Assembly: GCF_001306145.1 (NCBI RefSeq)
Contig: NZ_LGKO01000002.1
Location: forward strand, 930,001-994,000
Reading direction: 5' to 3'
DNA length: 64,000 nucleotides
From: Thermanaerothrix daxensis
GTDB lineage: Bacteria; Chloroflexota; Anaerolineae; Anaerolineales; Anaerolineaceae
The stretch's first letter is position 1. Every line of letters begins with the position of its first letter. The notes beneath the pieces were generated by a model that had not been told where the DNA came from, searched no databases, and was given only the letters and a program-made list of their open reading frames with translations. Shown piece by piece: positions 19,675-56,432 of the stretch. The position numbers and the translations under genes were made by a program.

Positions 19675-21060
19675 ATGGATGCTCAGGCACTCTTGCTCTC
19701 ACAATGGCAATTCGCAGTTACCTCAGTTTATCACTTCTTTTTCGTCCCGCTGACTTTAGGCCTTTCGGTTATAGTGGCCCTCATGGAAACATTTTATGTG
19801 CGCACAGGCAATGACCTTTACCTGCGCATGACGAAGTTTTGGGGTAAATTGTTCGTGATCAATTTTGCCATGGGGGTTGTGACCGGGATTGTGCAGGAAT
19901 TTCAGTTTGGGATGAACTGGTCCGAGTATGCGCGGTATGTTGGAGATGTGTTTGGTGCTCCTTTGGCAATCGAGGCTTTATTGGCATTTTTCATAGAATC
20001 TACCTTTTTGGGAGTATGGATTTTTGGATGGGATCGCCTTTCGAAAGGAATGCATGCGCTGGCAATGTGGTTGGTGGCCCTAGCCTCGAATCTCTCGGCA
20101 TTTTGGATTCTGGTGGCTAACTCGTTTATGCAAGCCCCAGTTGGTTATGCGGAGCAAGGGGGACGGTTGGTGATGCAGGATTTTGGGGCTCTGTTGACCA
20201 ATCGCTATGTATGGGGCCAATTCCCTCACACAGTTTTCTCGGGTTTCTCCACAGCTGCATTTTTTGTTTTAGGAATCAGCGCCTATCACCTGCTGCGGAA
20301 ACGCCATGAGGAGATCTTCAAACGCTCGTTTCAAATTGCTTCCGTGTTTGGAGTTCTTTCAATCTTCATGGTAATTTTGATTGGCCATACCCAGGCCCAG
20401 AGGATGGTGGAATTCCAACCCATGAAGATTGCCTCGGCGGAGGCGTTGCTTCGCTCTGAAAATCCGGCCTCATTCTCGCTTTTGAGTATTGTGGACCAGG
20501 CAACAATGCGGGAGGTTATTTCAATTCGTATTCCTCGCGTACTCAGTCTTCTGGCGTATAACCGTTTGGAAGGGGAAGTTAAAGGGGTGCTAGATTTACA
20601 AAATGAATACCAAGCGCGCTTTGGTCCGGGGAACTATGTGCCGGATATTACGGTCACCTATTGGTCATTCCGTCTCATGGTTGGAAGTGGCTTCCTAATG
20701 TTTTTCCTGGCGGCCTATGCGCTCTTCCGTGTGATGCGCCGTGAGATCACACAACCCCTTTTCAAGTTTCTAAACGTCTACCCGCTGGCTATAGCCTTGC
20801 CTTATCTGGCTAACATCAGCGGCTGGTTGTTGACTGAGATGGGGCGTCAGCCTTGGGTGGTGTATGGAAAATTGCGCACCGCAGACGCGATCTCTCCCAA
20901 TCTAACCGGAGGGATGGTGCTGTCCACGCTAATTGGGTTCACCCTGGTGTATGGAGCACTGATGGCGGCAGATATCTATTTGTTGGCCAAGTACGCCAAA
21001 GCCGGTCCGGAGCCAGCGCAAGCGTCTCGTCCCTTAGAAGAGCAGGCCTACTGGGAGTAA
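19675..21060 (+). CDS. cydA: Cytochrome bd ubiquinol oxidase subunit I
   Basis: 461 aa, the short form with a reduced Q loop. It oxidises quinol and reduces oxygen at the heme b595/d pair without pumping protons. Visible key residues: H20 (VYHFFF), E100 and E108 (IEALLAFFIES) for the b595/d site, H185 (PHTVFSG) for heme b558, K251 and E256 in the quinol loop (MKIASAE), and the GWLLTEMGRQPW signature. AAGGAG precedes the ATG. It forms an operon with cydB. No cydDC exporter genes lie nearby, as is common outside proteobacteria. Confidence 0.95.
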   Translation: MDAQALLLSQWQFAVTSVYHFFFVPLTLGLSVIVALMETFYVRTGNDLYLRMTKFWGKLFVINFAMGVVTGIVQEFQFGMNWSEYARYVGDVFGAPLAIEALLAFFIESTFLGVWIFGWDRLSKGMHALAMWLVALASNLSAFWILVANSFMQAPVGYAEQGGRLVMQDFGALLTNRYVWGQFPHTVFSGFSTAAFFVLGISAYHLLRKRHEEIFKRSFQIASVFGVLSIFMVILIGHTQAQRMVEFQPMKIASAEALLRSENPASFSLLSIVDQATMREVISIRIPRVLSLLAYNRLEGEVKGVLDLQNEYQARFGPGNYVPDITVTYWSFRLMVGSGFLMFFLAAYALFRVMRREITQPLFKFLNVYPLAIALPYLANISGWLLTEMGRQPWVVYGKLRTADAISPNLTGGMVLSTLIGFTLVYGALMAADIYLLAKYAKAGPEPAQASRPLEEQAYWE

Positions 21061-44743: not shown

Positions 44744-45220
44744 TTAACCGGCTGCCTCTGGCTGACAAATTTCCAGTTGTGAACGCCAGGCGTGCATCTC
44801 GCGCAGGATTTGCTGAGGTCCTTGGCTTGCCAGTTTTTCGAGGGTTAGACTCTGCAGAGCCCTGTTGATGGCATCTTGAAGACTAGCCCACACGGGCAGA
44901 TAGACACAGGTCTCGCGATGAGGGCAAGCGTTGGCGCTTTCCAGACATGGGGAGAGGTGGATTGGCCCTTCTAGGGCTTCCATAATTTCGCGCAAATTGA
45001 TGGAATCTGGAGAGCGATTCAGGCGAATGCCACCGCGTGGTCCGGGAATTGTTTTGATCAAACCCTTTTGCATCAGCGTGTGCGCAATTTGGTGCATGAA
45101 AGGTAGGGGAATATCCAGATTGCGAGAGAGGACTGCCGTTGCAATGGGATGATCACCCGTCTTTGCCAATGCCAGCATAATTTGTAACCCATAATCGAAG
45201 CGTCGGCTAATTTTTAGCAT
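44744..45220 (-). CDS. Rrf2-family transcriptional regulator with three cysteines
   Basis: 158 aa from ATG 45220 (MLKISRRFDYGLQ). Winged helix with IAHTLMQKGLIKTIPGPRGGIRLNRSPDSINLREIMEALEG is the Rrf2 hallmark. C92, C99 and C105 (SPCLESANACPHRETC) match the positions that bind [2Fe-2S] clusters in IscR, NsrR and related regulators, so it is probably an iron-sulfur, redox or NO sensor. It is divergent from a cytochrome c gene and next to a peroxiredoxin, which suggests control of respiratory or oxidative-stress genes. A longer frame upstream to 45268 has no support. Confidence 0.9.
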   Translation of the reverse strand: MLKISRRFDYGLQIMLALAKTGDHPIATAVLSRNLDIPLPFMHQIAHTLMQKGLIKTIPGPRGGIRLNRSPDSINLREIMEALEGPIHLSPCLESANACPHRETCVYLPVWASLQDAINRALQSLTLEKLASQGPQQILREMHAWRSQLEICQPEAAG

Positions 45221-45395
45221 GTCTAATCCTCTAATGTAAGGTTTTAATTTTGCAGGATTCTTTATCAAAATAGTATGTTTTATCCATTTTGTATAGTGAT
45301 GAATTCACATTTCTCTGATGAGGAAACTCTTAATCATGATGAAGGTTGATTCAAAATTCACCCGGTTCTCATCTCTCTCTCATTTAGAGACGGGA

Positions 45396-45401: not shown

Positions 45402-45447
45402 CAAGGTGAATGTACGTGAATTTGTTCATTTGTCCAAAGGAGGACGT

Positions 45448-45876
45448 ATGAAAAAACTGGGAATTCTGTGGATTGTGTTGGTGCTCGGTGTGTTTGCTCT
45501 ATCCGCGTGTGGTGGTGGCGGAGGGGAGGCTAAAGAAACGCGCCCTACACCCCCGCCCGAATATGCCGGGAAGACGAACCCCTATACTACGAGCGATGCC
45601 AATGTGGTAGCAGCCGGTAAAACCATTTATGACCAGCGCTGTGCTTCCTGCCACGGTGAGAGAGGTCTTGGAGATGGGCCGGCGGGGCAAGCGTTGGACC
45701 CACATCCCGGCAATCTGGTCGAACTGGTCAAGGTAGCGAAAGACGATTATATCTTCTGGCGCATTTCTGAAGGTGGTGCCATGGCACCTTTCAATTCTTC
45801 GATGCCGGCTCAGAAAGGGATATTGACCGAGGACGAAATTTGGCAAGTTGTCACTTACATTAAGACCTTCAAGTAG
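45448..45876 (+). CDS. Lipoprotein cytochrome c (class I, mono-heme)
   Basis: 142 aa. Signal peptide with lipobox LSAC gives a lipid anchor at C21, followed by a Gly-rich spacer. One heme c site, CASCHGERGLGDG (C65, C68, H69); probable axial Met is M119 in NSSMPAQKG (M112 less likely). ATG 45448 follows AAAGGAGGAC. The size and fold match a small membrane-anchored electron carrier. Its position directly ahead of the two-component and cox genes suggests that it feeds the caa3 oxidase, or carries electrons for a partner regulated with it. Confidence 0.93.
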   Translation: MKKLGILWIVLVLGVFALSACGGGGGEAKETRPTPPPEYAGKTNPYTTSDANVVAAGKTIYDQRCASCHGERGLGDGPAGQALDPHPGNLVELVKVAKDDYIFWRISEGGAMAPFNSSMPAQKGILTEDEIWQVVTYIKTFK

Positions 45877-45979: not shown

Positions 45980-47800
45980 ATGGCAAATCAAGTAATAAGG
46001 ACATCAATTGTCCGATTTTGCAAAAGATTGCAAAATGCCCTTTTGTTAGTTGGAGTTTTCCTTTCCGGTTTAGGGGTGGCTGGTCTGGCTAACGGAAGCG
46101 GCATGGCTGTTGCCTGGTTGATTGGGGGGATAGGTCTATGTGTATTGGGAGTATGGGGAAGGTGGCCTCGAAAACGTGAAAAAGAGGTGTGGGAATCAGT
46201 GGAGGGGGCTAAAGACGTAGCTCTTGAAGGCATTGGTGATAATGTTCTTTGGCAAGATCTCTCGGATCTTCTTGATACGAACGATGAGGAAGGGCTGATT
46301 CGTAAGGCTCTTGAGAAGGCCGTCGCCTTTAGTGGGGCTAGCGGTGCCACTTTTATCCCTTTAGATGAATGGAACCAACCTTTACGAGTTTATGCGGCTG
46401 GCGAGGAAACGATGGTGGCCAGCGAGGGTTGGGAGAAGAGTTTGGCTCAGCCCAAGGTTCGTCTTTCCTGTAAACAATGTCAGGTTTATCGGGCGGTCGT
46501 AGGTCAGGGATGTTCTCTTTTCCAGGGTGGTATATCAGAGGCAAAAGTGGTAGAGTGTCTTCCCCTAAAGTACCGTGGCCGTACGGTTGTTGTTGTAAAC
46601 TTCTTTTCAACGCAGCCTGATTTTAGGCTTGGGGAAGAAATTCGGCATGCATTAGAGAACTTCTTCTCGGTTATACTGGTGGGATTGGAGCTGTACCGTC
46701 TGAAGGGACGGGAAACCGCTATCTACTCCCAAGTATTAGGGAGTCGTGTAAGACACCCTGACCTGGACAGCACACTTAGACCCCTCGTATGGCGGTTAAT
46801 GCGGGTTTCGGGGTGTGAAGGCGCAGCGCTATACCTCCCTAAAAACGAAATCAGGATGTTGCCCACTTTTCTCACCGTGGGACATTTCCCATTGACTGAG
46901 CCTGAAGGCGCTCGAGAGGTTTGGAGCCGGGTCCTCAGAGCCGCTCAAGCCTGGCCCGAGCGGCCTCAGTACATCCCTCTCGAACCCGATGGTACACAAG
47001 GCTGGGTGTTTCGCCTTGTATCCTCCCAAAGTGGGGATTTGGGAGTGCTGATGCTTTATGGACCGGACTCTTCTTTGCAGGGGGAGGCTGCACTTGAAAG
47101 GCTGGGTTTGTTACTGGATGCTCTGGTATATGTGATTGAAACTGAGCAGATGAATTTTGATCTGGCTTATCGAGCAGTCATGCAAGAGCGGCTGCGTCTG
47201 GCGCGTGAAATTCACGATGGCCTGGCCCAAACGCTGGCTTATCTGAAATTGAACGCGGCGCAGATGATCCAGCTGCTTAATCAGGAGAAGCACGCGCGCT
47301 TAGAAACTTTGCTTCATCAACACTATCAAGCGCTCTCCGAGATTTATTTGGAGACACGCCAGGTAATGGATAACTTACGTTTTAGCCCGCAGGAGGATAT
47401 GAATGCCTGGATTCGCCAGGTGGCAGCCAATGTGGCAGAAGGTGCAGACTTGCAGATCGAATGTATTCTCCCTGAGAAGGCTCCTGATCTTCCTCTGGAG
47501 GTACAGGCTCAGATTCTACGTATTATCCAAGAAGCCTTAAATAACATTCGTAAACACGCTCATGCTTCCAGGGCGTGGATTTCACTGAGTTCCTGGAATC
47601 GAGACTGGGTTTTGGAAATTGGCGATAATGGAGTTGGTTTTTCTCCTGAGGATGTGCCGCAATTCTCTCAACACGGATTGCGAGGAATGCGCGAACGCGC
47701 TGAGTTGATTGGGGCCGAATTCCAGGTCATCAGCCGGCCTTATCAAGGCACGATTATCCGTTTACAGGTACCATTTCGGATTGAGGAGTCGCTGGTATGA
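45980..47800 (+). CDS. Sensor histidine kinase, NarL-system (HisKA_3) type
   Basis: 606 aa. Two hydrophobic segments at about 17-37 and 41-59 anchor a protein that is otherwise cytoplasmic. Two GAF-like domains follow (about 90-235 and 250-385). The first contains four cysteines, C164, C167, C178 and C193, that could hold a metal or Fe-S cluster. The kinase core has the dimerisation box LAREIHDGLAQTLAYLKLNAA with phospho-acceptor H412 (as in NarX/NreB/DegS), then EALNNIRKHAHASR (N box) and DNGVGFSPEDV, GLRGMRERAELIGAEF. It is coupled by ATGA to its response regulator. No ribosome site precedes ATG 45980 and the -10-like TAAAAT at 45968 is close, so the transcript may be leaderless. Confidence 0.93.
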   Translation: MANQVIRTSIVRFCKRLQNALLLVGVFLSGLGVAGLANGSGMAVAWLIGGIGLCVLGVWGRWPRKREKEVWESVEGAKDVALEGIGDNVLWQDLSDLLDTNDEEGLIRKALEKAVAFSGASGATFIPLDEWNQPLRVYAAGEETMVASEGWEKSLAQPKVRLSCKQCQVYRAVVGQGCSLFQGGISEAKVVECLPLKYRGRTVVVVNFFSTQPDFRLGEEIRHALENFFSVILVGLELYRLKGRETAIYSQVLGSRVRHPDLDSTLRPLVWRLMRVSGCEGAALYLPKNEIRMLPTFLTVGHFPLTEPEGAREVWSRVLRAAQAWPERPQYIPLEPDGTQGWVFRLVSSQSGDLGVLMLYGPDSSLQGEAALERLGLLLDALVYVIETEQMNFDLAYRAVMQERLRLAREIHDGLAQTLAYLKLNAAQMIQLLNQEKHARLETLLHQHYQALSEIYLETRQVMDNLRFSPQEDMNAWIRQVAANVAEGADLQIECILPEKAPDLPLEVQAQILRIIQEALNNIRKHAHASRAWISLSSWNRDWVLEIGDNGVGFSPEDVPQFSQHGLRGMRERAELIGAEFQVISRPYQGTIIRLQVPFRIEESLV

Positions 47801-48453
47801 GTACACGTGTCGTACGAGTTGTGGTTGTGGATGATCATGCACTGTTTCGGCGCGGCTTAATCGAGTTGCTTCGAGATATGCCCGAAATACAGGTTGTTGG
47901 TGAGGCCTCCAACGGTCAGGAGGCCTTGGATGTAGTGCGTCGCACAGCCCCTGATGTGGTGTTGCTGGATATAAACATGCCTTCCATGGATGGACTGCAA
48001 ACGCTGGAAGCGCTACGTAAATGGATTTCTTCCCCCAGGGTGTTGATGCTGACGGTCTCACAGCAGGAGGCAGACCTCATGCAAGCCATTCGGAGTGGCG
48101 CGGATGGTTACCTCCTCAAAAACGTAGAGCCTGAGGAACTTCGCAAAGCCATTCTGCGAGTTTATCAGGGCGAAGGAGCTCTTTCCCCAGAAGTTACAGC
48201 GCCGGTGTTGCGTGCTTTGGCCTACCAGTCCGAAATGGCAAATCGGCAACTCCTCAGTGATCGGGAATTAGAGGTGCTCGAATGTTTGGCGGATGGAAAG
48301 ACTACCGGGCAGATTGCGGCAAAATTGTATATTTCTGATAACACGGTAAAAACCCACGTCCGCCATATTCTGGAAAAACTGGAAGCTTCTAACCGCACTG
48401 AAGCGGTGAGCAAGGCAATTGCTTTGGGGTTGATTCGCCGTCGAGACTCTTAA
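47797..48453 (+). CDS. Response regulator, NarL/FixJ family
   Basis: 218 aa. Receiver with D12-D13 (VVVDDHALF), phospho-acceptor D58 (VVLLDINMPSMDG), T86 and K108 (GYLLKNVEP), then a LuxR-type helix-turn-helix (LLSDRELEVLECLADGKTTGQIAAKLYISDNTVKTHVRHIL). It pairs with the histidine kinase (ATGA overlap) and is followed by a strong terminator and then the cox operon, so the cox promoter is the nearest likely target. Its receiver resembles the N-terminal domain of the downstream CoxB (compare VVVVDDHALFRRGLIELL with VLIASANPLFGRGLERLI). Confidence 0.94.
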   Translation: MSTRVVRVVVVDDHALFRRGLIELLRDMPEIQVVGEASNGQEALDVVRRTAPDVVLLDINMPSMDGLQTLEALRKWISSPRVLMLTVSQQEADLMQAIRSGADGYLLKNVEPEELRKAILRVYQGEGALSPEVTAPVLRALAYQSEMANRQLLSDRELEVLECLADGKTTGQIAAKLYISDNTVKTHVRHILEKLEASNRTEAVSKAIALGLIRRRDS

Positions 48454-48484: not shown

Positions 48485-48514
48485 AATATCCCCCTTCCAG
48501 GGGGATATTTTTAA
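48485..48514 (+). terminator. Intrinsic terminator after the two-component genes
   Basis: Perfect 10-bp stem AATATCCCCC/GGGGGATATT with a 5-base loop and a short T tract, 32 bases after the response regulator stop. It separates the two-component genes from the cox operon transcriptionally, although readthrough cannot be excluded. Confidence 0.85.
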
Positions 48515-48525
48515 CCCCTTTTTAA

Positions 48526-48555
48526 TACCCGTCTAATCTCGACAATATAGGGGTA
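48526..48555 (+). promoter_or_regulatory. Candidate NarL-type binding site (inverted heptamers)
   Basis: TACCCGT (48526-48532) and AGGGGTA (48549-48555, i.e. TACCCCT on the other strand) face each other 16 bases apart. The second matches the E. coli NarL heptamer TACYYMT, the first has one mismatch. The nearer heptamer lies 3 bases before the predicted -35 of the cox promoter, where an activator is commonly found. Recognition rules for this response regulator are unknown. Confidence 0.35.
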
Positions 48556-48557
48556 AA

Positions 48558-48587
48558 TTGTGTATTTTATATAGGGCAGTCTATAAA
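48558..48587 (+). promoter_or_regulatory. Promoter of the cox operon
   Basis: TTGTGT (48558-48563) and TATAAA (48582-48587) with 18-base spacing. Predicted start about 48594, some 26 bases before the first ATG of the coxB frame. Confidence 0.5.
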
Positions 48588-48619: not shown

Positions 48620-50047
48620 ATGATGGGTTTCCAACAATTGGATGGGGTGCGTAGGGTGTTGATTGCTTCGGCCAACCCATTGTTCGGGCGCGGCTTGGAA
48701 CGGTTAATTCGCCAACAATGGCAGGGGCGGCGGTTCGAAATTCGAGTGGTCGGAACAATGGAAGAGACGCTGGCGCTTCTTGAATCCTGGTTACCCGATC
48801 TTGTCATTCTGGACTACGATGACCGCTCTCTGGATCGTAAGCGGTTCATGGACCTCTTTGTTAGTGGCAATCGTGCTATGCAGGTAATGTTGGTCTCTCT
48901 TCAGGAAAGCGGTTCAGTAGTCGTTTATGATCGCCGCGTCCTTACCCCCTCTCAGGCAGAAGATTGGCTTTCGCTATCAGAACCCTCGGGCTTCCAATCC
49001 CCATCCTCAGGAAAGGAGCAGTCATTCTCTATGAAGCACTTTGCTATTGCAGGCTCTATAGTGGTTGTATTGACCTTAGCCACCAATTATCTCTTGAACA
49101 CCATTCAAATTCTTCCTCTTCAGGCAAGTGTTCAAGCCCAGCCCATTGATCGGCTATTCAGCCTTCAGTTTATGCTGATTGCATTTTTCTTCTCCCTGAT
49201 CGTGGTTTTTATGGGATACAGCCTGATAGTCTTTCGTCAACGTGCCAAGGATGAAAGCGAAGAGGGAGCCTATATCAAGGGCTCCACCGGGCTCGAGGTG
49301 GTATGGACGATCATTCCCATTGGGATTGTCATCTATCTTTCCTATCTGGGGTCGCTTGCATTGGCTGAAACGCGGCGGGTGGACCCCCAGGCAGTTGAAG
49401 TCAAAGTGGTGGCAGGGCAATGGTTCTGGCGATTTGAGTACCCCCAGTATGGAATTACATCAGATACGTTGTATTTACCGGTAAATCGCCAGGCTCATTT
49501 ACGCTTAACCTCCCTGGATGTGATTCACTCATTTTGGGTGCCTGAGTTTCGTGTGAAGCAAGATGCTCTTCCGGGTGAGAACCTTGAGCGTGAATTACGG
49601 GTTACGCCAACCATGGTGGGTCAATTCAAGGTGCGCTGTGCGGAGTTGTGTGGTACTTCCCACGCCTATATGGAGAGCCCAGTTGTAGTGGTATCTCAGG
49701 CCGATTTTGAAACCTGGATTAGTGAGCAACTTCAGGCCATTGGGGCGGATCCTGCTACACGGGGTGCAAAGTGGGCTCAAACCAATGGCTGTCTTTCCTG
49801 CCACTCGGTGGATGGTTCCCCGGGCGTGGGGCCAACCTGGAAAGGCCTGTATGGCCTAACAGATCACGAACTGGCGGACGGCAGTCGGGTTGTCGTGGAT
49901 GAGGAGTACTTGAGAACGGCCATTGTTAACCCGAATGCTCAGGTGGTCAAAGGCTATCCGGCTAATGTGATGCCAGCAAATTACCAGGCGTTGCTCTCGG
50001 ACCAGCAGATCAACGACATTATTGAGTACATCAAGACGCTCCGCTGA
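48620..50047 (+). CDS. coxB: Cytochrome c oxidase subunit II (CuA and cytochrome c) with an N-terminal receiver-like domain
   Basis: 475 aa in one frame. Residues 11-118 read like a response-regulator receiver (RRVLIASANPLFGRGLERLI, LVILDYDDRSLD with D65 at the phospho-acceptor position), but the acidic pair is replaced by S-A and no conserved Lys is found, so it is a pseudo-receiver. A linker (119-137) follows. From M138 onward it is normal caa3-type CoxB: a signal-anchor helix (139-159), two membrane helices (about 178-206 and 223-249), a CuA cupredoxin domain with H303, C340, E342, C344, H348 and M351, and a C-terminal cytochrome c (C391, C394, H395, axial M451). AAAGGAG at 49012-49018 lies 12 bases before ATG 49031 (M138), so an internal start could make a conventional CoxB. 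First gene of the cox operon. Confidence 0.95.
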   Translation: MMGFQQLDGVRRVLIASANPLFGRGLERLIRQQWQGRRFEIRVVGTMEETLALLESWLPDLVILDYDDRSLDRKRFMDLFVSGNRAMQVMLVSLQESGSVVVYDRRVLTPSQAEDWLSLSEPSGFQSPSSGKEQSFSMKHFAIAGSIVVVLTLATNYLLNTIQILPLQASVQAQPIDRLFSLQFMLIAFFFSLIVVFMGYSLIVFRQRAKDESEEGAYIKGSTGLEVVWTIIPIGIVIYLSYLGSLALAETRRVDPQAVEVKVVAGQWFWRFEYPQYGITSDTLYLPVNRQAHLRLTSLDVIHSFWVPEFRVKQDALPGENLERELRVTPTMVGQFKVRCAELCGTSHAYMESPVVVVSQADFETWISEQLQAIGADPATRGAKWAQTNGCLSCHSVDGSPGVGPTWKGLYGLTDHELADGSRVVVDEEYLRTAIVNPNAQVVKGYPANVMPANYQALLSDQQINDIIEYIKTLR

Positions 50048-50073
50048 TTTCAACCCGTTGTGTGGAGGGTGCA

Positions 50074-51924
50074 ATGAAACGTTTATGGTCAATTGGTTTG
50101 GTGCGCGGCCTTGTCGGGCAGATTTTGGGTTTTCTGATCGGGATGGGTCTATTGAGTGCCGTGCGTGCTGTTATGGGTTTGCCCTGGAAGACCGAACCTG
50201 CCTGGGTAGCAGGGGCGTTTGGTGGGGTTTTGGGATTCATGGTGGCTTTGGGCGCCTTTAAAGATTGGTATGCGTGGGCGCTTGGGCGCGAGACTCCTGA
50301 TATCGAAGAGATTGAAGAAGAGCCGGGCTGGCGGCGCTATCTGAGCTACAGCCTGGATCATAAAGTGATTGGGGTTCAATACGGTGTGTTATCTCTGCTG
50401 TTGCTAGCCCTTGGTGGGAGCTTTGCGCTGATTTTTCGTGTTGAATTGGCCCGCTCGGGAATGCAGTTCCTCTCTTTGAACTTTTTCAATACCCTGATCG
50501 GGATGCACGGGATGGTGCTGATCATCTCAATCCTGTTGGGGTTTGCTGCTATGGCGAATTTCCTGGTACCGCTGTTGATCGGAGCCAGGGATATGGCCTT
50601 CCCACGCCTTAACGCTTTCTCGTTTTGGATTGCCGTTCCCGCTTCGATTACGCTATTAAGCGCTCTTTTTGTGGGTGGATTTGATACCGGGTGGACGGCT
50701 TACCCGCCGTTGAGCATTCGTGCTCCATTGGGCATGCAGATGTTTTTTGTGGGGGTGTTTTTTAACGGATGGTCGTCCATTCTGGGAGCCCTCAACCTGA
50801 TTACTACGATCATTCGATTGCGTGCTCCTGGAATGTCGTTGTTTCGCATGCCCATTTTTGCCTGGGCTACTCTGGCAACGTCCATTATTGCCCTTACGGC
50901 AACCCAATTGATCGGCCTTTCCTTCCAGATGGTAATGTTTGAGCGCCTGTTTGGCATGGGTTTCTTTGATCCGGCTAAGGGTGGAAATCCCATTCTTTTC
51001 CAACACCTCTTCTGGTTTTATTCACACCCTGCTGTATACATCTTTGTGCTGCCCGGTTTGGGTGTAATTAGTGAATTGTTGCCCGTTTTTGTGCGCAAGC
51101 CTTTGTTCGGCTATCGCTGGGTTGCTATGTCGTCGTTGGGAATTGCGCTGGTGGGCTTTCTGGTGTGGGGACATCATATGTTTACCTCGGGCATGGAAGA
51201 ATACCTGCGTGTGCCTTTCATGTATAGCACCTTGCTAGTGGCTGTTCCCACTGGGATCAAATTCTTCAGTTGGGTGGCAACCTTGTGGCAAGGACGCATT
51301 CGTACCCCTGTACCGATGCTTTTTGTCTTGGGTGCAATTGTGGTGTTTCTCATGGGCGGTCTCAGTGGTCCTCCCAATGGTGTGGTCGCTACCGATCTCC
51401 ATCTACACGATACGTATTTCGTGGTAGGTCACTTTCACGATACGATGTTCGGCGGCTATATCTTTCCCCTCTTCGCGGCCATCTATTACTGGTTTCCCAA
51501 GGTTAGCGGTCGGAGGTTAAATGAAACTTTGGGGCGGCTACATTTCTGGCTCATGACCCCTTCGTTCTTGGTAATGACCTTTGGGCAGATGTGGGTAGGG
51601 ATGATGGGGATGCGCCGCCGTATTGCCGATTATGATCCTGCCCAGGGATTTGATACGGCCCATCTAATCATCACCATCGCTGGCTTTCTCATTGGGTTAT
51701 CAGTGCTGATTTTCTTCATCAATCTGATAATGAGTTTGCGTCGTGGGGAGGTTGCGGTGGGTAATATCTGGCAATCGCGCTCGCCAGAATGGCAATTGCT
51801 GCCTTCCCCGGCCCCCATGCATAACTATCCTCAACCCTTCCGGGTGGTGGGGGAGCCCTATGATTACGGCTTGAAGGGATCGCGTTACGTGGAGCCGCTG
51901 ACCCAACCTGCGGGAGATGATTGA
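50074..51924 (+). CDS. coxA: Cytochrome c oxidase subunit I (A2-type heme-copper oxidase)
   Basis: 616 aa, ATG 50074 set by GTGGAGGG just upstream. About 90 N-terminal residues with two extra hydrophobic helices (about 9-34 and 44-62) precede the usual 12-helix core. Low-spin heme ligands H145 and H455, heme a3 ligand H453, CuB ligands H318, H367 and H368, and the crosslinked Y322 are present (WFYSHPAVY, GHHMF, GHFHDTMFGG). The helix VI Glu of A1 oxidases is replaced by YSHPAVY, the signature of A2-type (Thermus caa3-like) enzymes. K396 of the K channel is in place. The enzyme reduces O2 to water and pumps protons. Confidence 0.95.
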   Translation: MKRLWSIGLVRGLVGQILGFLIGMGLLSAVRAVMGLPWKTEPAWVAGAFGGVLGFMVALGAFKDWYAWALGRETPDIEEIEEEPGWRRYLSYSLDHKVIGVQYGVLSLLLLALGGSFALIFRVELARSGMQFLSLNFFNTLIGMHGMVLIISILLGFAAMANFLVPLLIGARDMAFPRLNAFSFWIAVPASITLLSALFVGGFDTGWTAYPPLSIRAPLGMQMFFVGVFFNGWSSILGALNLITTIIRLRAPGMSLFRMPIFAWATLATSIIALTATQLIGLSFQMVMFERLFGMGFFDPAKGGNPILFQHLFWFYSHPAVYIFVLPGLGVISELLPVFVRKPLFGYRWVAMSSLGIALVGFLVWGHHMFTSGMEEYLRVPFMYSTLLVAVPTGIKFFSWVATLWQGRIRTPVPMLFVLGAIVVFLMGGLSGPPNGVVATDLHLHDTYFVVGHFHDTMFGGYIFPLFAAIYYWFPKVSGRRLNETLGRLHFWLMTPSFLVMTFGQMWVGMMGMRRRIADYDPAQGFDTAHLIITIAGFLIGLSVLIFFINLIMSLRRGEVAVGNIWQSRSPEWQLLPSPAPMHNYPQPFRVVGEPYDYGLKGSRYVEPLTQPAGDD

Positions 51925-51947: not shown

Positions 51948-52157
51948 ATGCAATCTGTAAAAAAATCCACATCTGAAATACGGCGGGGCGTTTATGTGTT
52001 CATCTTTTTGGCGGTCTTGACGGTCCTGGAATATTACGTCGGCACTCATGAAGGACCTGCCGTTATCTTGTGGGCCATTGCATTGCTCAAAGCCGCGGTT
52101 GTAATTCAGTTTTACATGCACCTGATGCGTGTCTTTCGATCACGGGAGGAGCATTGA
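51948..52157 (+). CDS. coxD: Cytochrome c oxidase subunit IV
   Basis: 69 aa, too short to be obvious but well supported by position. I choose ATG 51948 because GGAGG lies 8 bases upstream; an earlier ATG at 51924 overlaps the coxA stop. Two hydrophobic helices (about 14-32 and 39-60) with the pattern of the prokaryotic subunit IV family (YVFIFLAVLTVLEYYVG and LLKAAVVIQFYMHL). It lies between coxA and coxC, as in caa3 operons, and its stop TGA shares one base with the coxC start. Confidence 0.88.
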   Translation: MQSVKKSTSEIRRGVYVFIFLAVLTVLEYYVGTHEGPAVILWAIALLKAAVVIQFYMHLMRVFRSREEH

Positions 52158-52726
52158 TGAGCGCTCATGAATTAAGTCTGGAAGCCTACCGGCAACGTGT
52201 TGCTACAAATCGCATTGGCTTGTGGTTGTTTATCGTCTCGGATGCCTTTATGTTTGGGGCTCTGCTGATTACGCGCTTCTACCTTCTAGGTGGGCGCCGG
52301 CCCGAACTGGACCAGGCATTGGGGCTAATCGTAACCTCGGTGCTGCTAACCAGCAGTTTCTTCATGAACCGGGCGGAGGCAATGATCGCCGCTGGAAATC
52401 GGCGCGGTTTTTTGACTAGTACGCTCATAACTATGCTTTTGGGGATTGCCTTCCTGGTGGGTGTGATTGGATTTGAGTGGCGTCTTGCACCTTTTGGTCC
52501 TGGAGATGGGGCCGAAGGCGCTGTCTTCTATATGATGACCGGTATGCATGCGTTCCATGTTTTGACAGGTGTGATTTTCCTCTTCATCGTTTTTCGCAAT
52601 GGCCTCAAGGGACATTATTCTCCTGAGCGCCATTGGGCAGTGGAAGCCTGTGCGAATTATTGGCACTTTGTAGATGTGGTTTGGATTTTCTTCTACCCTG
52701 CTCTCTACCTGATAGGAGTGCTTTAA
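52157..52726 (+). CDS. coxC: Cytochrome c oxidase subunit III
   Basis: 189 aa, the short prokaryotic form with five helices. Starts at ATG 52157, overlapping the previous stop (TGATG). Typical features: the N-terminal LWLFIVSDAFMFGALLITRFYLL (E of E-x-x-F-F replaced by D), the LTSSFFMNRAEAMIAAGNRRGF loop, MMTGMHAFHVLTGVIFL, and WHFVDVVWIFFYPALYL near the C terminus. Stabilises the proton entry side of subunit I. Belongs to the coxBADC cluster. Confidence 0.95.
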   Translation: MSAHELSLEAYRQRVATNRIGLWLFIVSDAFMFGALLITRFYLLGGRRPELDQALGLIVTSVLLTSSFFMNRAEAMIAAGNRRGFLTSTLITMLLGIAFLVGVIGFEWRLAPFGPGDGAEGAVFYMMTGMHAFHVLTGVIFLFIVFRNGLKGHYSPERHWAVEACANYWHFVDVVWIFFYPALYLIGVL

Positions 52727-52728
52727 CT

Positions 52729-53343
52729 GTGGGCATGCGGCAGTATGGGTTGTTGATCGGGACCGGAATTTTGGCGGGGGTGTTGCTCTTGAGCGGGTTG
52801 CTCTTCCCGTCGCGAACTCAATTCCGTGGTTCGTTGCTGGATCCGCCTCTTCCCGCACCCGATTTTTCCCTTGCTCAGGCCGATGGTACCCTCTTTACCC
52901 TGAGTGCCCAACGGGGCAAGATCGTCCTGCTTTTCTTTGGCTATACCTATTGTCCGGATGTGTGTCCTACAACGTTGGCTGATCTCAACGCCGCCCTGAA
53001 GCGGCTCGGCAGACAGAGCAAGAATATTCGGGTGGTTTTTATCTCCGTTGACCCCCGCCGTGATACCCCACAGCGCGCTCAATTTTATGCATCCGCCTTT
53101 AATCCCGGCTTTGTTGGTCTCTCAGGAGATGAAACAGAACTTCAACCTATCTGGCAGGCATATGGAGTTTATCGGCTTGTGCGTGATGAGGAGAGCCGTG
53201 GAAAGGATTACCTCGTGGATCATTCCGCACGAGTTTATCTGATAGACGCACAGGGGAATTTACGCCTGACCTATGCCTTTGGCACCCCGGTTGACGACCT
53301 GGTGAATGACTTGCGGTTGGTTTTACGGGACATTCGGCCATGA
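52729..53343 (+). CDS. SCO1/SenC-type copper chaperone
   Basis: 204 aa from GTG 52729, with AGGAG 10 bases upstream inside the coxC end; an ATG 6 bases later (52735) is the alternative. An N-terminal helix (about 8-25) anchors a thioredoxin-like domain outside. Copper ligands C75 and C79 (GYTYCPDVCPTTL) and H165 (LVDHSARVYLID) are all there. SCO proteins deliver copper to the CuA site of CoxB, and this gene lies downstream of coxC. Overlaps the next gene by 4 bases. Confidence 0.92.
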   Translation: MGMRQYGLLIGTGILAGVLLLSGLLFPSRTQFRGSLLDPPLPAPDFSLAQADGTLFTLSAQRGKIVLLFFGYTYCPDVCPTTLADLNAALKRLGRQSKNIRVVFISVDPRRDTPQRAQFYASAFNPGFVGLSGDETELQPIWQAYGVYRLVRDEESRGKDYLVDHSARVYLIDAQGNLRLTYAFGTPVDDLVNDLRLVLRDIRP

Positions 53344-53855
53344 GTGCGACAGCCAAAGCGGCGCTTATGCGCCTGGCGGTTACGTTTCTGATTGGGCTCT
53401 TGGTGGGCGTTCTGGTGGGGGAGGGAGCGTATTGGTTGCTGCGTGGCGAAAGCGAAAACGCCCCCCGCACCATAGAGATTGTCATTCCACCGGGTACGGC
53501 GGCCCAAATTGCGAAAGGTGGGGCGGGGCCGGTCCTTCCTCCCATGGTTTTTACCGAAGGGGATGTTTTGGTTGTGCGTAATGAGGATAATGTCAGTCAC
53601 CAACTTGGCCCCCTCTGGATTCCTCCGGGAAGCGCCGCCTCCCTTAACCTGGACCGTCCAAGCGCATATAGTATGGCTTGCTCGTTTCAATCTTCACAAA
53701 TTTTGGGGATAGATGTGCGTTCGCGCATCCGCCCGATAGATCGTTTTCAGGGTATTTTGGCAGTCTTGATCCCTACCTGGATGCTGTTGTGGGTTTATTC
53801 GCTGGTGGCGGTACCTCTGCCGGAAAACCCGGCTTCTCAATCACCTATGACATAG
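53340..53855 (+). CDS. Membrane-anchored cupredoxin-like protein lacking one copper ligand
   Basis: 171 aa. A first hydrophobic helix (about 9-27) and a second near the C terminus (about 136-158) flank an extracytoplasmic domain. In that domain NEDNVSHQLGPLWIPPGS and YSMACSFQSSQILGI line up with the ligand strands of single-copper cupredoxins: H87 and C114 are present, but the following His is a Gln (CSFQSSQ). The fold assignment is from pattern only. Overlaps sco by 4 bases and is 7 bases from surf1, so its role is probably in oxidase assembly or copper handling. Not a family I can name. Confidence 0.8.
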   Translation: MSATAKAALMRLAVTFLIGLLVGVLVGEGAYWLLRGESENAPRTIEIVIPPGTAAQIAKGGAGPVLPPMVFTEGDVLVVRNEDNVSHQLGPLWIPPGSAASLNLDRPSAYSMACSFQSSQILGIDVRSRIRPIDRFQGILAVLIPTWMLLWVYSLVAVPLPENPASQSPMT

Positions 53856-53862
53856 AGCACGT

Positions 53863-54654
53863 ATGAAAACGCGTGGATTTCTTCGCTGGGGTTTAACCAC
53901 CTTTCTGGTTGTGCTTGGTGTGGTTATCATGATCCGATTGGGATTCTGGCAGTTGGATCGGTTAGCGCAGCGGCGGGCTTTTAATGAGCGAGTGTTGACG
54001 GCTCAATCTCTGCCCCCTTTAAATCTCAACGAAGAACCATTGCCCATCGCCCAATTGCCAGACATGGAATATCGTGAAGTTCTCGTGATCGGAGAATATG
54101 ACCACGCAGATGAGGTTTTGTTGCGCAATCAGGTTTGGGAGGGGCGGCTCGGATTTCATTTATTGACGCCACTGCAAATACAGGGAACCTCCTGGGCAGT
54201 GCTTGTGGATCGCGGGTGGCTACCGTATGAGGAAGCCCAGCTTCCAGCGCGTTTGGCATATCAGGAGAGAGGGGTGGTATTGGTCAGAGGAGTCATTCGC
54301 CGCAGTCAAGAGCGTCCAGATTTTGGAGGTGTACCGGATCCAACTTTAGCACCTGGTCAATCGCATCTGGAGGCGTGGAATGTGGTCAACATTACACGCA
54401 TTCAGCAGCAAACCCGATTGCCCCTGCTGCCGGTTTATATTCAGCAAGCCCCTGACCCTGCCTGGCAGGGCTTACCCTACCGCACCTTACCAGAGGTGGA
54501 AATTAGTGAAGGGCCGCATTTGGGTTATGCCATTCAATGGTTTACCTTCGCCGCGATATTCGGATTGGGGTATCCGCTTTTTATCCGGCGACAGTTACAT
54601 AACAGCGCTAAGCAAGCCCGTGAGAGGAATCAGGAGGACGAGGAAGAAGGATGA
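53863..54654 (+). CDS. SURF1-family oxidase assembly protein
   Basis: 263 aa. Helices at the two ends (about 11-28 and 225-244) bracket a large periplasmic loop, the SURF1 topology. Conserved GFWQLDRLAQRRAFNERV after helix 1 and VDRGWLPYEEA and HLGYAIQWFTFAAIFGLGYP at the C terminus match the family, as does the EYREVLVIGEYDHADEVLLRNQV segment. SURF1 proteins help supply heme a to subunit I. Ends in a charged tail and overlaps ctaAB by ATGA. Confidence 0.93.
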   Translation: MKTRGFLRWGLTTFLVVLGVVIMIRLGFWQLDRLAQRRAFNERVLTAQSLPPLNLNEEPLPIAQLPDMEYREVLVIGEYDHADEVLLRNQVWEGRLGFHLLTPLQIQGTSWAVLVDRGWLPYEEAQLPARLAYQERGVVLVRGVIRRSQERPDFGGVPDPTLAPGQSHLEAWNVVNITRIQQQTRLPLLPVYIQQAPDPAWQGLPYRTLPEVEISEGPHLGYAIQWFTFAAIFGLGYPLFIRRQLHNSAKQARERNQEDEEEG

Positions 54655-56432
54655 AAAAACAGATTGGGCATTGGATTTATGGGATGGTCTTTGGTTTTCT
54701 GGTGCTGGCGGTTTACAGCGGGTATGTTGCCCGTTTTACTGAAGTCGGACAAGCGTGTGTTTCCCACTTGAGTTGCACGTTTATTCTTGGCCAACCTGCA
54801 ACTTGGCTGCCATGGGTGGCCCTAGCGCACCCCATTCTTTCATGGCTAGCGGCTGGTCTGGTAATCGGTTGGGGCGGTTGGCGACTCTCGGTTGGGCGGC
54901 AGGGTTTGTCCTCGTTTGAACGCTGGGGGTTAATTAGCGGCATCTTAATGCTGGCTCTTCAAGGTCTAGTAGGAGTCGTTCTTCACAAATCGGCCTGGAT
55001 GCCACCGAGGCTGTTGCACTTGGGGTTGGGATTAGCGGCTATGACCGCCCTGGGATTAAGCGCTCTCTCTACCCTGTCTGCCTTTCAGAACCCTATCGGT
55101 GGGAGCACCGGGTCGAATAAGCGCCTGGCTTTGCTGGGGTTAGGGGTTGTGGGGCTAACATTTGTGCTTATGGTAAGCGGTTTCGCTAATGGGTTGGATG
55201 AGGGAAGCCGGGCCTGTGGTGGATGGCCGTTGTGTGGTGGCTCCCTGGTGCTTGGCAACTGGGGGTGGAGCACGCTGATTCATCGGCTGATAAGCCTGCT
55301 GGTTCTGGTGGGGATGATGTATTTGATCATAAGAGTTTGGCGAGACTATGATGCCGATCCGCTGATTTTGCCTCTGGCCACGGCTGTTGGTGTGCTATTT
55401 ATAGGGCAAATTGGCGTCGGAGGATGGATGGTTGGACGGGGATATCCTGCCGACATGGTAGCATTGCACGCTCTTAACATTGTAGCCCTGTGGGGGGTGC
55501 TGATTGCCCTGGTCTATGGGTTGTGGACGCGTTCTCCGCGATCCGCTGAAAAGGGCTCTGATACAACGCCTTTGCGCGTGCGGCTTAGGGCCTACTTCCT
55601 TTTGAACAAACCGGTGATTGTGGCACTTCTTCTGGTCACAACTTACACTGGGATGGTGCTGGCGGCCAAAGGGATGCCCGACTTGCTCTTGACCTTCTGG
55701 ACGCTTCTGGGAGGTGCCCTGGCGGCTGGGGGAGCCAGTGCCATTAACCAATACATTGACCGTGACGTAGATCGTCGTATGCAGCGGACTGCCAGGCGCC
55801 CTATTCCTTCTGGCATTCTGACCCCGGCTCAAGGTCTGGCTTACGGGGTGGCGGCGTGTCTGGTTGCCTTCTTCCTTCTGGCTGGCAAGGTCAATTTGCT
55901 CAGCGCGTTGCTTGCACTGGCCGGAATGATCTACTACGTAGGAATTTATAGTCTATGGCTCAAACCCGCTACGACGCAGAATATTGTGATTGGGGGAGGT
56001 GCGGGGGCGATTCCGCCTTTGGTGGGTTGGGCGGCCGTCACGAATGACCTACAGGTGCCGGCTCTGTTTCTTTTCGCCATCATTTTCTTCTGGACACCCC
56101 CCCATTTCTGGGCTCTGGCGCTGGTGAGGCAGAAAGATTACGCTCGTGCTGGCATCCCGATGTTGCCAGTGGTACGAGGGGAAAAGGCGACCCGTTGGCA
56201 GATTTTTATATACACCCTGGAATTGGTTGCACTGACGTTACTGATGCCGCTTTTCAATCTGACCGGCCGTTTTTTCCTGGTCACGGCCATACTTCTAGGG
56301 GCATGGTTGATATATGCAGCCTGGCGGGTGCTGCACCTCCCTGGTCATCGCCCGGCCTATCAGATGTATCGCATCTCCAGCATGTACCTTGCGCTGGTCT
56401 TTCTAGCGCTGGTGGTAGATGTCCTAATCTGA
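54651..56432 (+). CDS. ctaAB: Fused heme A synthase and heme O synthase
   Basis: 593 aa. Residues 1-295 are CtaA/COX15: eight helices with the four His that hold heme b and heme o/a (H60, H123, H211, H273), and two cysteine pairs (C36/C42 and C189/C195) seen in the Cys-containing class. Residues 308-593 are CtaB/COX10, protoheme IX farnesyltransferase: LLNKPVIVALLLVTTYTGM, the Asp-rich NQYIDRDVDRRMQRT with N366, D370 and D374, then YSLWLKPATTQNIVIGG. The product converts heme B to O and O to A, with no hand-off between polypeptides. Last gene of the cox operon. Confidence 0.95.
   Translation: MKKQIGHWIYGMVFGFLVLAVYSGYVARFTEVGQACVSHLSCTFILGQPATWLPWVALAHPILSWLAAGLVIGWGGWRLSVGRQGLSSFERWGLISGILMLALQGLVGVVLHKSAWMPPRLLHLGLGLAAMTALGLSALSTLSAFQNPIGGSTGSNKRLALLGLGVVGLTFVLMVSGFANGLDEGSRACGGWPLCGGSLVLGNWGWSTLIHRLISLLVLVGMMYLIIRVWRDYDADPLILPLATAVGVLFIGQIGVGGWMVGRGYPADMVALHALNIVALWGVLIALVYGLWTRSPRSAEKGSDTTPLRVRLRAYFLLNKPVIVALLLVTTYTGMVLAAKGMPDLLLTFWTLLGGALAAGGASAINQYIDRDVDRRMQRTARRPIPSGILTPAQGLAYGVAACLVAFFLLAGKVNLLSALLALAGMIYYVGIYSLWLKPATTQNIVIGGGAGAIPPLVGWAAVTNDLQVPALFLFAIIFFWTPPHFWALALVRQKDYARAGIPMLPVVRGEKATRWQIFIYTLELVALTLLMPLFNLTGRFFLVTAILLGAWLIYAAWRVLHLPGHRPAYQMYRISSMYLALVFLALVVDVLI

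Follow-up and report, generated by a model that had tools for sequence, protein, structure and literature searches.

In Staphylococcus aureus, the histidine kinase AirS of the AirS-AirR (YhcSR) system carries an N-terminal [2Fe-2S] cluster on four cysteines. According to the excerpted text of PMC4601167, degradation or nitrosylation of this cluster abolishes the kinase activity of AirS. The same excerpt describes the staphylococcal NreB-NreC system, in which four cysteines of NreB carry an oxygen-labile [4Fe-4S] cluster and the respiration genes are controlled via NreC. The Chloroplast Sensor Kinase (CSK), which we consider together with Hik2, is counted among the known Fe-S PAS/GAF kinases in the available part of PMC6949291, and this class has a review of its own, cited in an excerpt of PMC8199190. 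In Caulobacter, FixL-FixJ activates the high-affinity terminal oxidases, and the single receiver FixT feeds back on the kinase (excerpt of PMC7078487). FixT of S. meliloti, as presented in that excerpt, is not phosphorylated and leaves phosphotransfer unblocked.

We compared these systems with a kinase-regulator locus in the window, which is the whole analysed stretch of 64,000 nucleotides of DNA. An earlier note on this DNA had placed here a sensor kinase with cysteines at positions 164, 167, 178 and 193 in its first GAF-like domain, a NarL-type regulator and a following cox operon. Our analysis bears out the positions of the kinase, regulator and coxB reading frames and of the four cysteines. 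The regulator does combine REC with GerE, and the operon behind it is of the caa3 type. The coordinates are given in Table 1.

Table 1. Features of the kinase, regulator and oxidase locus (positions in the window)
Feature	Position	Strand	Basis or remark
Monohaem cytochrome c, 5' of the kinase gene, syntenic in many relatives	45406..45876	+	Pfam
Sensor histidine kinase, 606 aa	45980..47800	+	ORF list, Pfam, AlphaFold2 model
GAF1, conserved sensor domain, kinase residues 92-250	46253..46729	+	Orthologue alignment, fold match
Four-cysteine motif C164-x2-C167-x10-C178-x14-C193	46469..46558	+	Alignment, codon positions
NarL-type response regulator, 218 aa, REC + GerE	47797..48453	+	Pfam, NCBIfam, alignment
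Terminator-like inverted repeat TCCCCC-N4-GGGGG with a T run behind it	48489..48504	+	Repeat scan
Weak sigma-70-like promoter match TCGACA-18-TATTTT	48539..48568	+	Pattern; such matches no more frequent in the region than in shuffles
pREC-CoxB ORF, 475 aa: receiver, hydrophobic segments, CuA (COX2), cytochrome c	48620..50047	+	
pREC, degenerate NarL-like receiver, residues 11-118 of the CoxB ORF, no acidic pair, no alpha4	48650..48973	+	
Internal AGGAG (49014-49018) and in-frame ATG (49031), predicted ordinary CoxB start	49014..49033	+	
CoxA (COX1)	50062..51924	+	Pfam; sole haem-copper subunit I found in the window genome
CoxC	52070-52726	+	Pfam COX3
SCO1	52633-53343	+	Pfam
Conserved small protein without Pfam match, after SCO1, syntenic in most relatives	53340-53855	+	
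SURF1	53863-54654	+	Pfam
CtaA-CtaB fusion	54651-56432	+	Pfam

The kinase consists of two hydrophobic segments (residues 17-40 and 39-61), GAF1 with the four cysteines (codons at nt 46469, 46478, 46511 and 46556), a second GAF domain (GAF2), HisKA_3 with His412 and HATPase_c. HisKA_3 (403-469) and HATPase_c (509-600) exceed the Pfam cut-offs; GAF_2 (101-228, E 0.0021) and GAF (261-327, E 0.019) fall below them. The AlphaFold2 model has high confidence across GAF1, and residues 84-243 align with the phytochrome chromophore-binding domain 2ool (Z 14.8, rmsd 3.5, 154 residues). Fold searches with the whole kinase and whole CoxB models were dominated by matches to the kinase part and to COX2, respectively. 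The histidine and HATPase_c of the kinase, together with the D, D, T and K residues and GerE of the regulator, place the pair in the HisKA_3/NarL-FixJ class, and HisKA_3 has seven matches in the window genome. The regulator gene begins within the end of the kinase gene. Its phospho-site residues D12, D58, T86 and K108 are intact in the window, and all four are present in 63/63 partner regulators. A plain nitrate sensor was rejected, as the NCBIfam NarQ and NarX models match the C-terminal part of the kinase only (NarQ: 101 bits against a cut-off of 553, residues 346-600). A haem-binding GAF like that of DosS was also rejected: there is no histidine among the invariant positions of GAF1, which leaves an unconserved ligand conceivable.

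The four cysteines turned out to be strictly conserved. Among 61 genomes searched we found 15 full-length kinase orthologues, whose GAF1 is 23-68% identical to that of the window, mostly only 23-31%. Seven positions of GAF1 (residues 92-250) are invariant among them, namely L111, D129, G141 and the four cysteines. No further conserved cysteine column was found in GAF1, where each other column holds cysteine in at most 3/15 orthologues. The spacing over the orthologues is C-x2-C-x(8-12)-C-x(13-18)-C. We then widened the sample to 396 genomes of the class and to loci fetched otherwise, searching them with a profile (E <= 1e-10). This gave 78 distinct GAF1 matches, and all four cysteines are present in 77/77 complete domains; the 78th (L116) was excluded from the count because masked N covers its first cysteine pair. 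Chance cysteines can therefore be rejected, and the conservation across homologues that the earlier note had asked for is confirmed. The family was found in the Anaerolineae (Chloroflexota); among 400 genomes over the phylum, matches at E <= 1e-12 came only from five genomes, all of the window's order. Short natural kinases of 390-437 aa retain the four-cysteine GAF, and a predicted transmembrane segment is absent in 4/6 of them. Pfam finds only GAF, HisKA_3 and HATPase in two of these. Since the short kinases, mostly without a transmembrane segment, keep this domain, the four-cysteine GAF appears to be the essential sensor. Four strictly conserved cysteines in a GAF/PAS sensor domain are also the mark of Fe-S kinases of the AirS/NreB kind. 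The best reading is a cysteine-ligated cluster in GAF1, probably Fe-S, used for oxygen or redox control of the oxidase.

The operon behind the regulator encodes a caa3-type oxidase, with CuA and cytochrome c (PF00034) in CoxB beside COX1 and COX3; CoxB scores 164 bits against TIGR02866 (cut-off 147.7). The other terminal oxidase of the genome is represented in the same window by its only cytochrome bd subunit I (19696-21009, + strand). An Rrf2-family regulator with a cysteine-rich stretch, CLESANACPHRETC, is encoded at 44744-45268 on the - strand, divergently from the cytochrome c gene, and is syntenic in many relatives. It is possible that this protein is a second Fe-S regulator of the oxidase cluster.

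To assess linkage we used 63 distinct four-cysteine kinases with flanking DNA, 51 of which had at least 6 kb downstream. Loci sharing an identical kinase C-terminus were merged, and ORFs of up to 380 aa were not taken as kinases. Among the distant kinase loci (L048-L074), 19/27 were extended, picked mainly by the size of the contig. An oxidase subunit I gene lies within 5 kb downstream on the same strand in 45/51 loci, being closest to the window CoxA in 39 and to the COX1 of L138 in 6. By Pfam L138 has COX1 and COX2, and this second COX1 kind goes with a short COX2. Because the search based on pREC (the receiver-like domain described below) selects loci that adjoin coxB and is thus biased, loci reached via the kinase only, and with sufficient flanking DNA, were counted separately, by locus number. 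The linkage was found in 21/27 of them (8/11 for L031-L044 and 13/16 for L126-L144), and the remaining 6/27 have no oxidase nearby.

Three layouts recur: HK-RR-pREC/coxB-coxA-coxC; HK-RR-pREC-coxA-coxC-coxB (L128, and similarly L144, whose regulator is unlabelled); and HK-RR-pREC with the second COX1 kind behind it (L135 among others). The conservation of linkage over differing operon layouts and two oxidase kinds supports a role in oxidase control. Among the exceptions, the pREC-coxB of L033 is on the same contig at a distance of about 90 kb (L087), and the fused pREC-coxB of the genome of L126 is on another contig (L145). The kinase of L126 itself adjoins pyruvate dehydrogenase E1-like genes, not an oxidase. 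In L141, the kinase and regulator genes stand beside a fragment of a nitrous-oxide-reductase-like propeller and a NosL/PCuAC/YtkA protein, so the role of the four-cysteine family may extend to other copper respiratory enzymes. L039, L044 and L140 are further loci without a nearby oxidase.

The reading of the locus as an oxygen or redox switch for caa3 synthesis is partly supported, by the conserved cysteines and oxidase linkage, and it was incomplete in that a third, receiver-like component had been missed. This component, pREC, is about 105 aa long and in the window makes up the N-terminal ~110 residues encoded by the coxB ORF, in frame. Its consensus is RVLIASANPLF...PDLVIVDYDD...MQVxLVSL...VVVYDRRTLTPAQAEDWL. 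PF00072 matches 10/10 members at E <= 0.1 (best 7.4e-5); the window pREC scores 13.7 bits, below the cut-off of 30.2. The match of pREC to the NarL receiver 3eul has E 6.7e-4. When pREC was aligned with the partner regulators, D12 was replaced by S or G in 50/50, D58 was kept in 47/50 and K108 in 4/50. The aligned pREC sequences lack the alpha4 segment, and the model runs straight from beta4 into beta5 and alpha5.

An iterated profile found pREC 3' of the regulator in 50/63 distinct loci, including 5/6 of those with the second oxidase kind. Beyond these 50, pREC is present in L078 and L144, and none was detected in 11/63 loci. A genome scan with two peptide patterns, from which L124 was removed as a false pREC (39% over 54 residues, Magnetovibrio), gave 49 pREC loci, with pREC fused to CoxB in 30 and a separate gene in 19. 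The kinase is missing from 10/49 of these loci and is encoded elsewhere in the genome for 8/10. Identity to the window pREC is 43-89%. We rejected the idea that pREC is an ordinary CoxB leader because it stands alone in 19/49 loci. In L128 and L144, pREC accompanies the kinase and regulator and the next gene is coxA, not coxB. Judged from sequence and gene order, pREC is a third component of the kinase-regulator system, fused to CoxB in the window genome.

The fused frame is real coding sequence. Its linker, which measures 29-45 aa from the YDR motif to the methionine, contains an in-frame stop in 0/31 fused ORFs (30 and the window), and the other two frames contain stops in 15/31 and 18/31. 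All 31 fused ORFs have an in-frame ATG where a separate CoxB would start (MKHF... and the like). A strict Shine-Dalgarno sequence (AGGAG, GGAGG or GAGGA, at -17 to -4) precedes 30/31 of these internal starts, as against 1/179 other downstream in-frame methionines. The fused sequences share descent, and the counts over 31 ORFs are thus not independent events. Retention of the internal ATG with its Shine-Dalgarno sequence predicts two products, pREC-CoxB and plain CoxB. In the window 12 nt separate the Shine-Dalgarno sequence from the ATG, an unusually long distance that may weaken the internal start there. CoxB has hydrophobic stretches at 136-165, 176-207 and 222-250. The topology of subunit II places the CuA domain outside. 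With three hydrophobic stretches and CuA outside, pREC would be cytoplasmic.

The gap between the regulator gene and the oxidase genes was also analysed in relatives. A 20-bp dyad, GGGTGA-N8-TCACCC, stands between the regulator and pREC in, for example, L097, L093 and L107. In the form GGGTGA-N(6-9)-TCACCC it occurs in 37/55 sampled regulator-to-oxidase intergenic regions, with a spacing of 8 in 30/37. A looser form is found in 38/55 of these regions, as compared with 17 occurrences in the remaining 798 kb of loci L075-L123. Genome-wide there are 35 exact sites in 25/61 genomes and 2 sites of the reversed pattern; among 25 inspected loci of this kind, 21 have the site inside an ORF. A general terminator stem is a partly rejected explanation of the dyad, which has a T run behind it in 18/37. 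The dyad is absent from the window and from the window's genus, and it is found in 0/6 loci with the second oxidase kind (L133, L135-L138, L143), whose regulators differ in the text of the recognition helix. It is therefore a lead only, and we claim no operator for the window, where a terminator-like repeat is present instead.

We consider it rather likely that the four-cysteine kinase, the NarL-type regulator and pREC form a three-part oxygen or redox control module for the terminal oxidase genes. The four cysteines would bind an Fe-S cluster that responds to oxygen or to the redox state of the respiratory chain, and the cluster would switch the kinase. The phosphorylated regulator would then act at a promoter in the interval that separates its gene from the oxidase operon. 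The sign may go either way: an intact cluster could silence the kinase, to be relieved once oxygen has destroyed the cluster, or the regulator could be a repressor in the absence of oxygen. It is also possible that the signal is instead quinone or general redox. Made together with the oxidase, pREC may bind the kinase (or the regulator) and damp the signal, as FixT does on FixL. The excerpted account of S. meliloti FixT suggests that competition as a decoy is not the sole option for pREC. In genomes with the fusion, pREC would sit on the cytoplasmic face of the oxidase, so that the membrane oxidase could report back to the membrane kinase. Somewhat more tentatively, the oxidase may carry in subunit II a decoy receiver through which the enzyme, once in the membrane, makes itself known to the Fe-S kinase commanding its synthesis, and the two proteins made from one ORF may let the cell adjust the amount of oxidase coupled to the kinase.

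Other readings of the sensor were considered. The four cysteines could form a structural zinc site, with the kinase sensing quinone, the state of the membrane or a ligand of GAF2 and still controlling the oxidase. Four cysteines with one CxxC are compatible with zinc. No significant match came from a profile search of the PDB with GAF1; RING zinc proteins were best, at E 0.077, which keeps zinc in play. The window kinase also has GAF2 and two hydrophobic segments. On the other hand, the short kinases without a predicted transmembrane segment keep only the four-cysteine GAF, and the signal most simply enters there; linkage with two oxidase kinds fits a redox signal. We regard the zinc reading as unlikely. 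A metal-free thiol/disulphide switch of the four cysteines seems to us quite improbable. It has precedents, as redox-active cysteine pairs control ArcB and SrrB (excerpts of PMC4601167 and PMC8199190). Against it, the four cysteines are retained together in every complete domain, and the cytosol of an anaerobe would be reducing for a disulphide switch. Moreover, thiol switches usually need one or two cysteines. A cluster on the four cysteines thus continues to be the reading that we prefer.

As for pREC, instead of acting as a brake it might assist the regulator or serve as its output, with mixed receiver dimers tuning DNA binding. Its resemblance to NarL-type receivers and its position 3' of the regulator gene in most loci would suit this role. 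However, the alpha4-beta5-alpha5 face is a common dimer face of receivers, and alpha4 is missing from both the alignment and the model of pREC; fusion to a membrane enzyme also fits a DNA-bound partner poorly. We therefore give this role a low probability. The extension of CoxB could also be a functionless leftover of fusion, so that only CoxB from the internal start matters. The conserved internal start speaks for this. A leftover would hardly be expected to be as well conserved as pREC, to occur as a separate gene, to accompany the kinase and regulator where coxA follows (L128, L144), or to leave the frame open through 31/31 linkers, and we give it very little credence.

A strictly conserved sensor in front of an oxidase suggests that the oxidase genes are regulated, and it offers a handle for finding the signal that activates the kinase. 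The host bacteria are usually described as strict or obligate anaerobes. If the proposal is true, a receiver domain is built into a terminal oxidase and closes a loop from enzyme to kinase in so-called obligate anaerobes. The pREC-CoxB fusion would be a further, novel mechanism for coupling the amount of an enzyme to signalling. In the open-licence literature we found no parallel for a receiver-oxidase fusion, including the combination of receiver, oxidase subunit and two-component system in Chloroflexi. No open-licence paper was found on terminal oxidases, oxygen and two-component systems of Anaerolineaceae, or on haem-copper oxygen reductases of anaerobic Anaerolineae. The combination of pseudo-receiver, oxidase and histidine kinase led, in the open-licence literature, to cyanobacterial work only. 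Among open-licence papers on Fe-S GAF domains, none concerned the four-cysteine family, judged by titles and the beginnings of abstracts.

Of the known systems, NarX/NarQ-NarL resembles the window pair in having a HisKA_3 kinase and a NarL-type regulator, and these are the best NCBIfam matches of the pair; the nitrate-sensor part is unmatched in the window kinase, however, and the NarQ match is far below the cut-off. AirS is likewise a histidine kinase with a four-cysteine cluster in its N-terminal region. Its spacing in the excerpt of PMC4601167, Cys-X7-Cys-X-Cys-X17-Cys, differs from the intervals of 2, 8-12 and 13-18 found here, and the spacing in GAF1 matches neither AirS nor other kinases in the available parts of the compared literature. 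AirS-AirR is moreover described there as a global regulator, and that excerpt names no receiver-like companion. NreB-NreC shares with our locus a four-cysteine kinase and, as excerpted, control of respiration genes, to be compared with the oxidase linkage here. It differs in that NreB is a cytoplasmic kinase with a PAS domain serving nitrate respiration, and it is accompanied by NreA, a GAF protein rather than a receiver. In terms of sequence, the four-cysteine sensor thus appears to belong to the known Fe-S PAS/GAF kind of kinase, as a variant. FixL-FixJ-FixT is also a three-part oxygen system with a small receiver beside an oxidase-linked two-component system, a likeness that here concerns gene order only. 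In FixL the sensor is a haem held by a PAS domain, whereas the kinase of the window has four cysteines. Caulobacter FixT itself carries Fe-S in the excerpted account, while pREC has instead lost the receiver active site, and fusion of FixT to an oxidase subunit is not described in the available text of PMC7078487. By analogy, FixT is the nearest functional parallel for pREC, and we propose that pREC provides oxidase-coupled feedback on the kinase.
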